Source: Brevundimonas sp. MF30-B
GTDB lineage: Bacteria > Pseudomonadota > Alphaproteobacteria > Caulobacterales > Caulobacteraceae
Assembly (NCBI RefSeq): GCF_004683885.1
Contig: NZ_CP038440.1
Location: 468,001-532,000, forward strand
DNA length: 64,000 nt
Direction: 5' to 3'
A model generated the notes under the pieces. The model saw only the letters and a list, made by a program, of their open reading frames with translations, searched no databases and was not told the DNA's origin. Within the stretch, counting starts at the first letter, position 1, and every line of letters begins with the position of its first letter. This document shows positions 25,655 through 46,018 of the stretch, one piece after another. The position numbers and the translations under genes are program-made.

Positions 25655-26578
25655 TCAGATCGCCGACACCGTGAAGGTCAGGACATCGGAATAGTCCCCG
25701 GCCCGGCGGCCCGCCGTCGAGCCGATGTTGATCGACAGGGGATAGTCGTCCAGGCGCGGGCGGCGCGACACCACTTCCAGCTGATCGCCCTGCGCCAGGT
25801 TCATGGCGCGGTCGCCGATCGCCAGACCATAGGGCACGAACCAGTCGCTGGCCCCTTGACGGAGCCGCCCGGCGTTTGCCGAGGTCACCGACACGCGATA
25901 GCCGCCGGTGCTGAGCACATACAGGCTGGTGTTCAGGGTCCGTCCACCCTGGGTCAGGTCGCCCAGGTCGATGGTGGCGAGACCGCCGCGCCGCGTGAAC
26001 TCGCCCTTCAGCCCCATCAGCGCGGTCGAGGCCACCTGCACGCCCAGCGTCACGGGCTTCTGCGTCTGGGGCGCTCCGTTGGGATGGTTCACGCCGATGA
26101 AGACGTTCTGTGAATACAGCCCCGCTCCCAGCAGCGACTGAGGATCGACGGCGAAGCTGAAGCGCAGGATTTCGCGCTCGCCGGGGCGCAGGTTGAATGA
26201 TCGGCCGCCGGGCCGCCGGGCGCTTTCGCCCGTGCGGGGCGTCACGTCGATCGAGCCGCGCTCGTCGACCAGCACATAGGGCAGGCGCTGCGGATCGCCG
26301 CTCAGGGCCAGGCCGAAGGGGTCGCCCGACGTATCCACGACCACCTCGCCCGTGCACGGGCCGGAGCCGCGGTTGACGACGGCCAGGTCGAACTGGCGCG
26401 CCGCCTCGCTGTCGGCGAAAGGATCAAATTGGACGATCCACTGGTCCGGGCCGGACTCGAACGCCAGCTGGCAGTTGGGCTGGCCCTGGCCTTGGCCTTG
26501 GGCGGCGGCCTGACCGGCAAGGGTCAGAACCCCTAGGGCGGCGGCGAGCGCGGGGACGAGCGTCTTGGCGCGAAACAT
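25655..26578 (-). CDS. Spore-coat-U-like fimbrial subunit, probable tip adhesin
   Basis: 307 residues from the ATG at 26578 (signal peptide MFRAKTLVPALAAALGVLTLAGQAAA); a GGAG site precedes it. Two beta domains: residues about 35-165 (CQLAFESG ... FNLRPGEREILRFSFAVDP) and a C-terminal domain (LGVQVASTALMGLKGEF ... YPLSINIGSTAGRRAGDYSDVLTFTVSAI), which resembles spore-coat-U/CsuE-type pilins. Two-domain subunits at the distal end of such operons are tip adhesins in the Acinetobacter Csu system. It lies 15 bases after the usher gene and is the last gene of the operon. Confidence 0.75.
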   Translation of the reverse strand: MFRAKTLVPALAAALGVLTLAGQAAAQGQGQGQPNCQLAFESGPDQWIVQFDPFADSEAARQFDLAVVNRGSGPCTGEVVVDTSGDPFGLALSGDPQRLPYVLVDERGSIDVTPRTGESARRPGGRSFNLRPGEREILRFSFAVDPQSLLGAGLYSQNVFIGVNHPNGAPQTQKPVTLGVQVASTALMGLKGEFTRRGGLATIDLGDLTQGGRTLNTSLYVLSTGGYRVSVTSANAGRLRQGASDWFVPYGLAIGDRAMNLAQGDQLEVVSRRPRLDDYPLSINIGSTAGRRAGDYSDVLTFTVSAI

Positions 26579-26592
26579 GAGCGACCTCCGGG

Positions 26593-29271
26593 TCATTCGG
26601 GAATATTCAGCGGGACGCGCAGGATCTGCAGGTCCAGCAGGCCGTCGTTGTCCGCCGGGACGGCGAACTCGAAGCTGGTCGCCGGGCTGGAGAACAGCTC
26701 GACGCGATAGCGTTTGCCGGGTTCCAGCTTCTGCACAGCGAAACGGCCCACCGAGTTGGTGAAGAACAGTTCAGGCTCGGCCGTCGGATCATCCAGCGCA
26801 ATCACTCGACCCGACACCAGGGCGACCGGCTTGTCCTGATTGCCAACCAGGCGGCCCAAGGCGCTGACGAACTTCGAGGACCCCACTTCGATGGCGTAGC
26901 CGCTGCGATAGGCGGGGCGCACGCGCACGATGCCTTCGCCGATGTCGTAGCCGAGCGGCGCGTCGATGGCGTCATAGCGCACCGACTGATTCACGTAGGA
27001 GGTCAGGGTGTTGTCCAGCGCCGGTCCGAAGGCGCCGCTTCGCGAGGTGAAGCGTCCGCCCTCCAGCGTCTCGCCGGCGATCACGCCGCCGTCCAGCGTC
27101 TCGTGCGGATAGACGATGGCGAAGCTGTCGAAGATGGTCCTGCCCATGGCGACCTTGCCGCCCGTGGTGGCGAAGGAGGTGCCGACACGCAGGCTGGTGA
27201 CCTGTTCCTGGGTGATGTTCGAGAAGCTCTCGCCAAAGGCCAGATGCGACAGGCTGGCGTCGAAACGGTTCGAGATGTAGTCGACCTGGCCCGACACCGT
27301 CTTGGCCCCGTCGTCATGCGTGGCCGCCAGCGAATAGCCGAAGCTGTCGACGCGGTTCTCTGGCGCCTGCTGGAAGCGGATGCTGCCGGAATCGCGGGCG
27401 CTGGAGTAGCGGGCCTCGGCGCGGCGGTCGTAGCGCGGCGTCCAGACCAGGGCGGCCGTGACGCCGAAGCCGTCGCCGCCCAACCCGCCGAACGGCGAGT
27501 TGCTGGGCAGACCCAGTTCCACGTATTCAGCGCCCACCTGGACACTCCATTGGCGTGCGTAACGGTAGCTGGAGGTGAGGTTCAGAGAGTAAGAATCTTC
27601 GCGAAAGGCGTCACGGCTCTGACGGTATGAACCGCTAAAAGCCATAGTCCAGTCTGGCGAGAACCGTCGTGAATATGCTGCAGACAGGGTCCAAGCCGTC
27701 TGATTTTGACCTAGAGAATTTCCCAGATCGGCAAAGTTCTCGGAGGTGTAGTCCGCTACCACGGTCCAGACGTCGGCGGTGCCGCCGTAGTCCAGGATGT
27801 AGTCGTAGCTGACGGTGAAGGCGTAGCCCTGGTCCACGAAACTGCTGTTCGAGACCGCGCCGTCCAGCCGAAGGCGCGAGCCCGCGTTCAGCAGGTACTG
27901 CGTCTGGCCGGTCAGGGTCTGCACATCGGCCGAGGCCTGCAGGCCCACGCCGATCGACGGGCGGTCCAGAAAGGCCTTGCGGTAATAGCCGGTAAAGGCG
28001 ACGTCGCCGCCGGAATAGTCGGGCGAGCCAAAGCCGCGGTTGCTGACCACGCCGACATAGGCGGCGTATTCATAGTCGCCGGGCTCCAGGTCGATGCTGT
28101 CCAGATAGGCGTTGTAGGCCACGCTCTCGCGGCGGCCGGACTGGCCCTCGATCTCCAGCTGGATGTCGTTGCTGCCGGTGGTCAGCGGCAGGTTGGAGAC
28201 GTCGTACTGGCCGGGATCCAGGCGGAACTCGCGCACGAAGACGCCGTTGCGCAGCACCCGAACGACCGAGTTCTCCTGCAGCACGATCTGGCGCGCGCCG
28301 GTCAGGACGTTGTTGCGGAAGGATTCGAACCGGCGCTTCTGGCGCGCCACGCCCAGGCCGCCCAGCTCGACGAAGCCCTGCCGGCCGCGCGTCTCGGCGC
28401 TGAGGTCGCCCAGCACCCAGCGGCGATACTCTTCGGGCTGGTCATAGACGAAGCGGGCGTAGCGGCGATCGACCTCATAGGTGTCGGCGAACCGATCGTC
28501 GCGACCTTGGACGTCGGCTTCGAACACCAGGCCGCCAAGGCGAACCGCGCCGTTCAGGAAGATGCTGGGCTTGTCGACGTCGCCGGTGGATTCGCGACGT
28601 TGCAGCGCCATGCTGGTGTTCAGATAGGCGCTGAACGATTCCGGGCCGCGTTCCGGCGCGTCGGGCGTGCCGCCGCGGAACAGGGATTCAGGCACGCGGC
28701 GTGTAGGATCGATGCGCAGCACCAGCACGGCCAGCTGTTCGGGATCGTAGTCCAGCGCGATGCCGGATCCGCCGATGGCTTCCGGCTCGAACGACGTCCG
28801 GCCCGCCAGGGTCACGTCCAGTTCGCCCTGCGCCTCGGGCGTCAGCAGCGGATTGATCAGGGCCTTGAAGCCGGCGGAATCGACGATGAAGCGGTCGTCG
28901 CGCGTCAGCAGAACCGGCAGTTCGCCCAGCACCCGGCGGTTGAACTGCAGCGGCACCGTCAGATTGATGTCGCGGTCATAGGGGTTGATGTTGGGCCGCG
29001 TCGGCTGGGCCTGGCTCTCGGCCGAGGCCTGGGCGGCGGGCGCGGCGTCCTGGGCTGGCGCCTGTTGAGGCGCGGGGGGTGCGGCGGGCGCGGCCTGGAC
29101 CTGCTCGACCGCGCGGGCCGCGGCCAGGCTGGCCAGATTGAGCGCAGCCGTCTGCGCCGCCTCCAGCGAGTCCAGCGTGGCCCGCGCGGCTTCGGCCGCC
29201 GCCGCATTGGTGGTCGACGAAATCGCCGCGATCAGGGCGATGGCCGAAACTGTCCCCCCCGAGACCTTCAT
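26593..29271 (-). CDS. Outer-membrane usher (PapC/FimD family, alternate class)
   Basis: 892 residues from the ATG at 29269-29271, which overlaps the chaperone stop (ATGA). After a signal peptide and an Ala/Pro/Gln-rich linker (residues about 30-95), the chain shows the usher N-terminal and barrel signatures (FRLDPGQYDVSNLPLTTGSN, PGDYEYAAYVGVVSNRGFG) and C-terminal carboxypeptidase-like plugs (FFTNSVGRFAVQKLEPGKRY). Ushers thread chaperone-bound pilins through the outer membrane. The Ala/Pro linker before the usher domain is unusual. Open frame upstream of 29271 belongs to the chaperone's antisense frame and is not coding. Confidence 0.93.
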   Translation of the reverse strand: MKVSGGTVSAIALIAAISSTTNAAAAEAARATLDSLEAAQTAALNLASLAAARAVEQVQAAPAAPPAPQQAPAQDAAPAAQASAESQAQPTRPNINPYDRDINLTVPLQFNRRVLGELPVLLTRDDRFIVDSAGFKALINPLLTPEAQGELDVTLAGRTSFEPEAIGGSGIALDYDPEQLAVLVLRIDPTRRVPESLFRGGTPDAPERGPESFSAYLNTSMALQRRESTGDVDKPSIFLNGAVRLGGLVFEADVQGRDDRFADTYEVDRRYARFVYDQPEEYRRWVLGDLSAETRGRQGFVELGGLGVARQKRRFESFRNNVLTGARQIVLQENSVVRVLRNGVFVREFRLDPGQYDVSNLPLTTGSNDIQLEIEGQSGRRESVAYNAYLDSIDLEPGDYEYAAYVGVVSNRGFGSPDYSGGDVAFTGYYRKAFLDRPSIGVGLQASADVQTLTGQTQYLLNAGSRLRLDGAVSNSSFVDQGYAFTVSYDYILDYGGTADVWTVVADYTSENFADLGNSLGQNQTAWTLSAAYSRRFSPDWTMAFSGSYRQSRDAFREDSYSLNLTSSYRYARQWSVQVGAEYVELGLPSNSPFGGLGGDGFGVTAALVWTPRYDRRAEARYSSARDSGSIRFQQAPENRVDSFGYSLAATHDDGAKTVSGQVDYISNRFDASLSHLAFGESFSNITQEQVTSLRVGTSFATTGGKVAMGRTIFDSFAIVYPHETLDGGVIAGETLEGGRFTSRSGAFGPALDNTLTSYVNQSVRYDAIDAPLGYDIGEGIVRVRPAYRSGYAIEVGSSKFVSALGRLVGNQDKPVALVSGRVIALDDPTAEPELFFTNSVGRFAVQKLEPGKRYRVELFSSPATSFEFAVPADNDGLLDLQILRVPLNIPE

Positions 29272-30110
29272 CGCGTGAACCGCACCGTCACGGGCTTGGA
29301 GGGATCGAGGGCGACGCCGCCGGTCGGGATCTTGAAGGTGCGGCGTGCGCCGCCGGGCGCCAGGTAGCCGACGCCGACCGTGGCCGCGACCGTCTGGCTG
29401 GAAAGGGCCTGAGAAAAGGGCTGGCCGGCCATGTCGGTGCCGGTCACGGTCCAGGTGGCGCCGCTCATCAGAGCATAGCGCTTGCCGCGGTTGACGACCG
29501 TAACCTCCAGACCCGGCTCTTCGGGCGGAGCGGCCAGGGGCGTGTCGCCGCTCAGGGACGGGTCGATCTCGGCGGCGGGCGGAGCGACCAGGGCCGGCTT
29601 GGCGGACTCGACCTGAACGTCGGCCTCGGCACCCGGAGGCGCGACCACGATCAGGGCCTTCATCGTATAGAGGACAGACACCTGCAGCGATCCGCCGCCT
29701 TCGCCGTCGGGCGTGGTGGCGACCGGCAGCTGGCGGACCCACAGGTAATAGGCGCGCGAGGTATCGATGGCGGTGTCGCCGACCCACTGGACGCGCACGA
29801 CCTGGCGGCCGTTGGCGGGCACCAGGCCCTGGGGCGGGAAGATCAGGAAGCTGTCGTCGGCGGGCGTTTCGGTCAGCCCGCCGTTCTCGTCCATCGTGAT
29901 CTCGGTGATCATGGTTTCGAACGGCATGGCAGACGAGCCGATGTTGCCGACCTCGATCCGAGCGGCCGATCCGGCGCCGCTGGTGGTCAGCTCGGACACC
30001 ATGGGGGAGACACGCATGGCCTCGGCCGAACTGACGGCCAGGAAACCCCCGACCACCACGGCCGTCACCGCACCCAGGCGGCGCGCGCTTTGAACCAATC
30101 CGCGAAACAT
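29268..30110 (-). CDS. Periplasmic PapD-like pilus chaperone
   Basis: 280 residues from the ATG at 30108-30110, with GGGGAG 7 bases upstream. Signal peptide ends at AVSSAEA; mature start MRVSPMVSELTTSG is typical of alternate-class chaperones. Conserved features: pilin-capping strand VGDTAIDTSRAYYLWVRQLPV and a second Ig domain at about 175-280 ending FTR. The loop between domains carries an extra Pro/Glu-rich stretch (PPAAEIDPSLSGDTPLAA). It escorts subunits to the usher encoded next. Confidence 0.93.
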   Translation of the reverse strand: MFRGLVQSARRLGAVTAVVVGGFLAVSSAEAMRVSPMVSELTTSGAGSAARIEVGNIGSSAMPFETMITEITMDENGGLTETPADDSFLIFPPQGLVPANGRQVVRVQWVGDTAIDTSRAYYLWVRQLPVATTPDGEGGGSLQVSVLYTMKALIVVAPPGAEADVQVESAKPALVAPPAAEIDPSLSGDTPLAAPPEEPGLEVTVVNRGKRYALMSGATWTVTGTDMAGQPFSQALSSQTVAATVGVGYLAPGGARRTFKIPTGGVALDPSKPVTVRFTR

Positions 30111-30214
30111 CTCGATACTCCCCGACGGCCCCCCGGCCAGCTGGCCAAAGAAGCCCACAAACTGTGGTTATGCAACCAAGCAATTCTCGTGCCGAACGCG
30201 TTGCCTGCGCCCAT

Positions 30215-30245
30215 AAAAAACGAGGGGGCGCATCGCGCCCCCTCG
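30215..30245 (-). terminator. Strong intrinsic terminator between pilin and chaperone genes
   Basis: Perfect 11-bp stem cgagggggcgc/gcgccccctcg (30221-30231 with 30235-30245) and, on the minus strand, six T (30215-30220). It lies right after the pilin stop, so most pilin transcripts should end here and the chaperone-usher genes would be expressed at lower level by read-through, which fits the subunit ratio of a fimbria. Confidence 0.88.
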
Positions 30246-31103: not shown

Positions 31104-31164
31104 TGGAAGTCTCCAAGCGAGGTTTGACGAAAAATCGTGCCGACCGAGATGGAGAAGTCCCCCC

Positions 31165-31194
31165 GATCTAACGCTGGTTTTAACGATCCATTAA
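31165..31194 (-). promoter_or_regulatory. CtrA box and sigma-73-type -10 of the pilin promoter
   Basis: TTAA-N7-TTAA at 31180-31194 matches the CtrA consensus exactly. On the minus strand GTTAGATC (31172-31165) follows 7 bases later and matches 7 of 8 positions of the Caulobacter housekeeping -10 GCTANAWC, so CtrA would sit at the -35 region as an activator. Leader length to the pilin ATG is about 55 bases, with GGAG near the start codon. Confidence 0.72.
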
Positions 31195-31273
31195 GAACCG
31201 GGTCAACAGTAAAAAACGACGATTTTGCGTTTTCTACCGTCAGGTGAATAATAACTATTGAACACAAATACCC

Positions 31274-31311
31274 AAAAAGCCCAACGATTCTGTCATTGCT
31301 GAGCTTTGGGC
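31274..31311 (-). terminator. Weak terminator candidate after the minor pilin gene
   Basis: On the minus strand gcccaa (31311-31306) pairs with ttgggc (31284-31279) across a 21-base loop, followed by five T (31278-31274). The stem is short, so efficiency is uncertain. Confidence 0.35.
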
Positions 31312-31348
31312 CAGTATTAATGATGTAGAGTTTGAGTTTAGTCGCCGC

Positions 31349-31927
31349 CTACATGCGCGGCGTGACCGTCAGGGTCACCGTCTCGGTGTAGCGGCCGGCC
31401 AGAAGTCCCGCGCCCTCGGGTCGTCGGGTCTGGAATTCGATCATGCCGCCGCCGGCGCTGATGCCGTCGCCGCTGCTCAGCGTGCGGCGGGCCAGAAGCT
31501 CGCGCGAGGTGAAGCGCTCCTCGACCGTCGCCGGCGCCGGGCGCACCGTCGGCACCACCAGACGCAGGTCGTATTCCAGCAGGCCCGCGAACGGCCCCTC
31601 GCCGCCCGGCTTGGTCACATGGGCCAGGCCGCCGCGCGCCGAGCGCACGTCGATGTCGAAGGGCACGTTGCAGTCCAGACCGAACGCCGCCTGGGCGCCT
31701 TCGCCCCCGCGCAGCTCGCCCAGATCGATGTCGCCGCCGCCCGACAGCATGCAGCGCGAGGCGATCCGGCCGGTCACGCCCACATCGAGGCTGCGACCCA
31801 GGGCGACGCTCTTGTCGGGCCCATGCGCAAAGGCCGGAGCGGCGCATGCTGAAGCGGTCAGGCCCGCAGCCAGCGCGACAGCGCGCAAGCGGTTCACCCG
31901 CGAAAAGTGCTTTTTCCCCACGCCCAT
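31349..31927 (-). CDS. Spore-coat-U-like minor fimbrial subunit
   Basis: About 192 residues from the ATG at 31927 (MGVGKKHFSRVNRLRAVALAAG; signal peptide ends APAFA). The mature chain (VGVTGRIASRCMLSGGGDIDLGEL ... AAFGLDCNVPFDIDVRSARGGLAHV ... LAGRYTETVTLTVTPRM) matches the spore-coat-U pilin pattern: Cys in strand 1, FxLDCNxPF-like second Cys, and a GxYxDxxTxTxTP end. Earlier starts at 32023 and 32008 exist but lack a signal. Upstream is a full CtrA box. It is separated from the pilin gene by the AT-rich control region. Confidence 0.78.
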   Translation of the reverse strand: MGVGKKHFSRVNRLRAVALAAGLTASACAAPAFAHGPDKSVALGRSLDVGVTGRIASRCMLSGGGDIDLGELRGGEGAQAAFGLDCNVPFDIDVRSARGGLAHVTKPGGEGPFAGLLEYDLRLVVPTVRPAPATVEERFTSRELLARRTLSSGDGISAGGGMIEFQTRRPEGAGLLAGRYTETVTLTVTPRM

Positions 31928-32065: not shown

Positions 32066-32204
32066 CGGCGGTCGTCATACTCCTGCCCCGCGGCCGACGC
32101 AACCTCGTTCTGTGATCGCCACAATCTCAACCCACGGAAGAATATGGTTAAGCTGTCGGCCGGGCGCGTCTGGCCGGGGCCTGCGGGACGGGTCATAAGG
32201 GGCC

Positions 32205-45335: not shown

Positions 45336-46018
45336 GGCTGCAGGCGGTACCCACCCGTGTCGGTCAGCAACAGGCGCGCCTGGCCGGGCTCGGGCTCGAT
45401 CTTCTGGCGCAGGCGGTAGATGTGGGTTTCCAGCGTGTGGGTGGTGACCCCGGCGTTATAGCCCCATACCTCGGTCAGCAGCTCTTCGCGCGACACGGGC
45501 TTGGCCCCGGCGCGGTAGAGATACTTGAGGATGTTGGTTTCCTTCTCCGTCAGCCGGATCTTCCGCGCCTTGCCGTCCAGCAGAATCTTGGCGGCGGGCC
45601 GGAACTCATACGGGCCGACCTGGAAGACGGCGTCCTCGGACTGTTCATGGCTGCGCAGATGAGCGCGGATGCGCGCCAAGAGCACGGCGAAGCGGAAGGG
45701 CTTGGTCACATAGTCGTTGGCGCCGGAGTCCAGACCCAGGATGGCGTCGGAATCCGACGACTGCCCCGTCAGCATGATCACCGGCGTCGAAACTCCCGCC
45801 TTGCGGATCAGCCGGCACGCCTCGCGCCCGTCCATGTCGGGCAGGTCGACGTCCAGCAAGATCAGGTCGGCGCGGATCTCGCGCGCCTGGCGCACGCCGT
45901 CGGTGGCGGTCGCGGCCTGGACCGGCCGGAACTCCTCGTGCAGAGCCAGCTGCTCGGCCAGCGCCTCGCGCAGGTCGTCGTCGTCGTCGATGATCAGGAT
46001 GGTCTTGGGTGCGGGCAT
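45332..46018 (-). CDS. OmpR/PhoB-family response regulator
   Basis: 228 residues from ATG 46018. The receiver domain keeps the acidic pocket (IDDDDD), phospho-Asp in LILLDVDLPDMDG, Thr in MLTGQ and Lys in VTKPF. A C-terminal winged-helix DNA-binding domain follows (LTEKETNILKYLYRAGAKPVSREELL ... THTLETHIYRLRQKIEP). No histidine kinase gene is nearby, so its partner is elsewhere (orphan regulator). Not CtrA: its sequence and size differ. Confidence 0.9.
   Translation of the reverse strand: MPAPKTILIIDDDDDLREALAEQLALHEEFRPVQAATATDGVRQAREIRADLILLDVDLPDMDGREACRLIRKAGVSTPVIMLTGQSSDSDAILGLDSGANDYVTKPFRFAVLLARIRAHLRSHEQSEDAVFQVGPYEFRPAAKILLDGKARKIRLTEKETNILKYLYRAGAKPVSREELLTEVWGYNAGVTTHTLETHIYRLRQKIEPEPGQARLLLTDTGGYRLQP

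Follow-up and report, generated by a model that had tools for sequence, protein, structure and literature searches.

Full CtrA-type boxes at two predicted promoters of a Brevundimonas chaperone-usher fimbria cluster suggest repression by CtrA

In Caulobacter, flagella, chemotaxis, type IV pili and adhesion are well known to be controlled by CtrA. In this bacterium full CtrA sites activate from positions near -35, half sites that lie over -10 repress, and a survey found the full TTAA-N7-TTAA sites mostly near -35 and activating, with the repressing class made up of half sites (PMC4287350). The same source reads the full motif at -14 of ctrA P3 as probably repressing and proposes that one full CtrA site serves two ctrA promoters in opposite senses. 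The hemE Ps promoter is repressed via a TTAA-N7-TTAA site at -35 plus a TTAA-N7-CTAA site over -10 (PMC11264516). As for Brevundimonas, the sciP gene of B. subvibrioides needs a CtrA site, its transcription being lost when both half-sites were changed (PMC7987155), and CtrA repression has been reported for a phage gene in the same species (PMC9437464). In the open-licence PubMed Central literature we found no description of CtrA control of a chaperone-usher fimbria, and in a preliminary description of the locus analysed here the arrangement was likewise not known to be described.

The window (the whole stretch of 64,000 nucleotides of Brevundimonas sp. MF30-B that was analysed) contains a gene cluster with a PapD-type chaperone and an usher, the hallmarks of a chaperone-usher fimbria (Table 1). 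Relatives of the pilin were counted at E <= 1e-10 in 131 genomes of the genus, and in other genera of the family they appeared in 2 of 21, with a weak match in one of the two. Named genomes yielded 29 loci when scanned, belonging to Brevundimonas, one other Caulobacteraceae bacterium and sphingomonads. The minor-subunit gene was found upstream of the pilin and in the same direction in all compared loci but L049, L058 and L111, in which none was matched there. The structural model of the pilin, a weak one, has a C-terminal beta domain with middling matches to fimbrial subunits (VIA-align) and no Foldseek match at E <= 0.001. Three loci (L042, L045 and L048) carry 2-3 tandem diverged pilin genes per cluster, as if the major subunit were being varied. 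The hairpin that separates the first gene from the pilin resembles a terminator, although a stricter terminator scan did not report it, and fits separate promoters for the two genes. A GC-rich hairpin with a T run, noted by eye, directly follows the pilin stop (window 30223-30245) and may act as a partial terminator, so that pilin would be made in excess of chaperone and usher.

Table 1 Features of the fimbrial cluster and of its predicted promoters (positions in the window)
Feature	Position	Strand	Remarks
First-gene -35 element TTGCGT	32097..32102	-	TTG at box-37 with TA at box-14 in 12/21 aligned loci
First-gene -10 element TATGAC	32074..32079	-	17-base spacer; predicted start about 32066; same 12 loci
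Second exact CtrA-type box TTAAGGGTTCCTTAA	32051..32065	-	First-gene promoter; exact upstream of this gene in 16/25 cluster genomes
First gene, minor subunit, spore-coat-U-like	31349..31927	-	Start codon inferred at about 31927; window copy without Pfam match
Terminator-like hairpin with T run, gap between first gene and pilin	31245..31320	-	RNA fold -21.6 kcal/mol, z -3.0
Pilin -35 element TTGACC	31201..31206	-	TTGAC starts 10-14 bases before the box in 14 genomes, and is also in boxless G050
Exact CtrA-type box, pilin promoter	31180..31194	-	Exact at the same place in 6/15 TTGAC-promoter genomes
Pilin -10 element TAAAAC	31177..31182	-	Overlapped by second half of the box; 18-base spacer; TA here in 12/14
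GTTAGATC, -10 of the preliminary description	31165..31172	-	More likely where transcription starts (AGATC; predicted start about 31169)
Pilin gene, 278 aa	30267..31103	-	Probably the major subunit; relatives in 25/131 genus genomes
Periplasmic pilus chaperone, PapD type	29268..30119	-	PF00345, E 6e-6, above gathering score; start approximate
Outer-membrane usher	26593..29286	-	PF00577, E 3e-8, above gathering score
Last cluster gene, putative tip subunit	25655..26596	-	ORF overlaps usher end by 4 bases; no NCBIfam match

The preliminary description had started from an exact TTAA-N7-TTAA sequence before the pilin, and TTAACGATCCATTAA at 31180-31194 is indeed an exact CtrA-type box in the pilin promoter (TTAATGGATCGTTAA on the minus strand); the pilin ATG (31103, minus strand) follows after 76 bases. 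Such boxes are rare, but the window has more of them than chance would give: it holds 2 exact matches and 100 dinucleotide shuffles gave 0. The second exact box is an addition to that finding. The whole genome (2,801,126 bases) has 8 exact boxes and none of the reversed control pattern, and two of the eight are in the fimbria cluster, spaced 856 bases. Over the 131 Brevundimonas genomes we counted 1-11 exact boxes in each (0-8 for the reversed control). The other six of this genome and some in relatives, viewed by eye, are located in mixed contexts, one of them apparently within a coding region, and no textbook CtrA target was apparent. CtrA itself is encoded in the genome (NF045991 equivalog, 415 bits for a cut-off of 350), and upstream of its gene a TTAA-N6-TTAA sequence is present and no N7 box within one mismatch.

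Some observations concern boxes and regulators elsewhere. In L122 and L123 (G043:C1 and G026:C17) the exact box TTAAGTCAAGATTAA stands upstream of what looks by eye like a small membrane-protein ORF, and it is shared by many of the genus genomes listed; to our knowledge this locus is not a known CtrA target. A second copy of the 15-base fimbrial box of G001, TTAACGTTTCATTAA, is found at an apparently unrelated locus (L121, G001:C6:123266-123280). The window also contains, at 45341-45565 (minus strand) and about 13 kb from the cluster, one of the 8 OmpR-type regulator genes found in the genome. As possible owners of the fimbrial boxes, CenR, with TGA-N8-TGA sites (PMC9275681), and ChvI, with TTGC-N3-GCAA sites (PMC9731502), were considered and do not fit.

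Upstream of the first gene, 6 of the 25 cluster genomes have the box with one mismatch, in addition to the 16 exact ones of Table 1, which include G127, and only three (G123, G024 and G119) have none within one mismatch; in the sphingomonad loci there were one-mismatch boxes or none. When 21 loci were aligned by the box, the TTG and TA pair of Table 1 was shifted by 3 bases in L053, and no other offset was found. The promoter is of sigma70 type (TTG-N20-TA, 17-base spacer) and its -10 ends 8 bases before the box. Among 8 divergent representatives (less than 65% alike upstream) the arrangement is kept in 7, that is, in 7/7 when L053 is left out, while 5000 letter shuffles reach at most 1 at any offset. 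Four of the 16 loci with an exact box (L056, L057, L106 and L120) do not have the -35/-10 arrangement. In 93% of cases the first base of an RpoD motif is found 34-37 bases ahead of the transcription start (PMC4287350). On this basis the start is predicted at roughly the first base of the box, which would then extend from about +1 to +15. We also considered whether this second box belongs to the divergent tryptophan 2,3-dioxygenase gene, and this was rejected: that gene and the two window genes beyond it were unmatched in 50 loci, within a reach of a few kb. In L040, L041, L043 and L044 the palindrome-like CCCAAAATGGG / GTGCCA...TGGCAC sequences flank the first-gene promoter, and in the B. diminuta group CCCCA-N3-TGGGG adjoins the box; these elements are possibly operators of a second regulator.

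The pilin promoter was compared in 14 genomes, or 15 once G050 (L015/L053) is counted. In the 14 the order is always TTGAC, then a TTAA-like half, then the place of the -10, and in G050 TTGAC is followed, after an 18-base spacer, by TAACGA. Apart from the six with an exact box (the window, G128, G061, G066, G095 and G093), the box has one mismatch in G038, two in seven genomes and three in G050, so that 9/15 are without an exact one. In the remaining 10 of the 25 cluster genomes a TTGAC pilin promoter was not seen; one of them is G005, where the stretch is partly N. Shuffling the spacer letters 20000 times placed an exact first half at the right position in 0.099 genomes on average and in 3 at most, compared with the 6/15 observed, and the result was nearly equal with 14 genomes, leaving G050 out. 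As the conserved pair is TTGACC with TAAAAC, the box overlaps both the spacer and the -10 (about -25 to -11). A promoter scan at an E. coli-like threshold gave no sigma70 site at either of these promoters.

The sequence from 31169 to 31104 (minus strand) is a conserved 5' leader of the pilin mRNA that starts with AGATCGGGG and shows a short stem closed by CTCGGTC with little covariation; both-side changes are seen in 1/12 predicted pairs, and the stem is weakly supported. The AGATC that opens this leader hairpin is compatible with transcription beginning at about 31169. A conserved sequence of roughly TAACGnCG followed by a T run directly precedes the pilin -35 in the window (31206-31236, minus strand) and in many of the compared genomes. 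No GANTC site (GcrA/CcrM) was found in the first-gene promoter stretch, and a single GAATC is located well upstream of the pilin -35.

The genome has a CtrA gene and the promoter box is conserved (exact in 16/25 at the first gene and in 6/15 at the pilin), the two properties by which we regard the cluster as a probable member of the CtrA regulon, and from these sequences CtrA is very probably its direct regulator. The presence of two promoters and many relatives makes the link stronger than the preliminary description could see. Both promoters look like targets of repression: the boxes are positioned over the core promoters, which by the Caulobacter position rule (PMC4287350) points to this sign. 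In terms of geometry the sites fall in the CtrA-repressed class, over the -10 or the start of a sigma70 promoter, and outside the activated class, in which the 5' end of the box is near -35; relative to the predicted starts it is near -25 at the pilin and at +1 at the first gene. On balance we favor a repressing role, in which phosphorylated CtrA would keep both fimbria promoters off and the fimbria would be made once CtrA has been cleared. In the mechanism that we infer, including CtrA binding, the start sites, the sign and the timing, two sigma70-type promoters would serve the cluster, at the minor-subunit gene and at the pilin, both having a full CtrA box inside the space taken by RNA polymerase. 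CtrA~P would bind both boxes and block the polymerase, so that swarmer and late predivisional cells, rich in CtrA, would make no fimbria; stalked or S-phase cells, where CtrA is cleared, would make it. Several properties count against this mechanism. Full sites in the Caulobacter survey mostly activate (PMC4287350), and in the exact-box genomes the pilin -10 elements are weak, as they might be in a CtrA-dependent promoter. An exact box is missing from 9/15 genomes at the pilin and from 9/25 at the first gene, 4 of the 16 exact first-gene boxes are without the -35/-10 arrangement, and the promoter scan gave no sigma70 site.

The preliminary description implied the opposite sense. GCTANAWC is the Caulobacter -10 consensus, and 7 bases beyond the pilin box the sequence GTTAGATC (31172-31165) matches it in 7 of 8 positions, which had been taken as a near-consensus -10. 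With it the box would be located at about -36, within the activated class, the start would be near 31158 and the pilin would be expressed in predivisional and swarmer cells like the type IV pilin. In favor of activation the window has the exact box, the 7-base gap and the 7/8 match, and near -35 full boxes activate in Caulobacter (PMC4287350). The sequence is there as described, but at that position it is found in the window only (1/14), with relatives carrying for example ACCAGATC, TCGATCGA or CCTGAGGT at that place, and for this reason it was set aside, whereas the shared TTGAC would idle at -48. Furthermore, in the 12 first-gene loci examined, which had been chosen for carrying an exact box, the 20 bases that follow the box contain no TANAW[CT]. 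We consider activation of the pilin by CtrA unlikely. From the preliminary description we retain CtrA control of the fimbria, now by genome comparison, but not the proposed architecture, and the fimbria is probably controlled in the opposite sense.

To see the extent of these promoters in the genus, two composite patterns were searched in the 131 genomes. The first one, TTG-N20-TA-N12-TTAA-N7-TTAA, was built from the 12 loci and contains nothing about fimbriae. It gave 15 matches in 15 genomes, one in each (control 0), and all 15 stand at minor-subunit genes; 12 are the known promoters and three (G047, G023 and G077) are new, in genomes without a pilin match. The second one, TTGAC-N6/7-TTAA-N7-TTAA, matched once in each of 7 genomes; six are the known pilin promoters and the seventh is found in G047 just after the minor-subunit gene, near the contig end. 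Because both patterns had been built on known loci, the blind part of the result consists of the three new first-gene matches, the new pilin match and the absence elsewhere. In G047 and G023 the first-gene match is upstream of relatives of the minor subunit (best matches of 60% and 48% identity), and in the short pieces examined chaperone and usher were unmatched. Chaperone and usher relatives are nearby in 10/10 of the composite-promoter relatives tested, besides the window and G077 (G095, G023 and G047 are outside this count). The G077 match is upstream of a diverged cluster in which the relatives of minor subunit, chaperone and usher have mostly 26-31% identity, with one short stretch of 39%. 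The 52-base first-gene promoter there (L125, G077:C1:2047500-2052500) is, although the chaperone-usher cluster behind it is clearly diverged, identical letter by letter to that of G001. Judged by these sequences the promoter module may be portable, unchanged before a different cluster, and in G077 either the promoter was kept while the genes differ or the cluster was replaced.

The restriction of the composite pattern to fimbrial genes over 131 genomes might also be expected if another regulator, perhaps specific for the fimbria, owned the TTAA-N7-TTAA sites and CtrA were not involved, and part of the N7 is alike in one subgroup (CGTTTCA, in 6/12 first-gene loci). The recurring part is however the CtrA consensus itself, eight letters exact in 16/25 genomes, and the N7 varies between subgroups of the 12 loci picked for their exact box, making such an owner improbable. 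Still less probable appears a mixed role, similar to that at the several ctrA promoters, by which CtrA would block the conserved sigma70 promoters and drive a second pulse from weaker starts downstream. The single full site proposed for two ctrA promoters of opposite senses in Caulobacter (PMC4287350) would be a precedent and a usable downstream -10 is present in the window, but in the window alone, as this -10 is not conserved. Finally, given the shuffle tests and the pattern searches with empty controls, the boxes are almost certainly neither chance nor a side effect of an AT-rich spacer next to a -10, even if at the pilin the -10, TA-rich in any case, shares its place with the second half of the box.

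Returning to repression by CtrA, its extension to much of the cluster-bearing Brevundimonas, with the fimbria as a CtrA-off organelle of the stalked cell, directly repressed at two promoters and alternating with the CtrA-on flagellum and type IV pili, falls in our judgement slightly short of an even chance. If true, the swarmer-to-stalked transition would swap one class of surface appendage for another, and the cluster would be a compact case for the rule that the position of the CtrA site sets the sign, with full boxes at the start site. We did not find a full CtrA box at the start site described in the literature passages on CtrA sites.

In its gene content the cluster resembles the archaic chaperone-usher fimbriae (Csu-type, spore coat U), as its genes for minor subunit, pilin, PapD-type chaperone, usher and putative tip all point the same way; it differs in that the window subunits are too diverged for Pfam, and for Csu-type fimbriae we did not find CtrA control described in the papers searched. 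Caulobacter pilA is also a pilin gene with CtrA sites, but it is CtrA-activated and belongs to a different pilus (type IV), with the driving site at -35 plus upstream repressing sites (PMC11264516), whereas the site at the fimbrial pilin overlies the core promoter. Within the same host genus, DELTA_120 of the Brevundimonas phage vB_BsubS-Delta has CtrA boxes and reported repression (PMC9437464), in this case in a phage intergenic region with many boxes and no surface organelle. The most similar promoters are ctrA P1/P3, mipZ P2 and hemE Ps of Caulobacter crescentus, with CtrA sites over the -10 region and active when CtrA is cleared (PMC4287350, PMC11264516). For ctrA P3 the repressing sign is an inference of PMC4287350 and hemE Ps also has a site at -35 (PMC11264516). 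Unlike these genes, none of them for a surface organelle, the cluster described here codes for an adhesive fimbria, and two of its promoters carry full exact boxes, in one case at the predicted start site.
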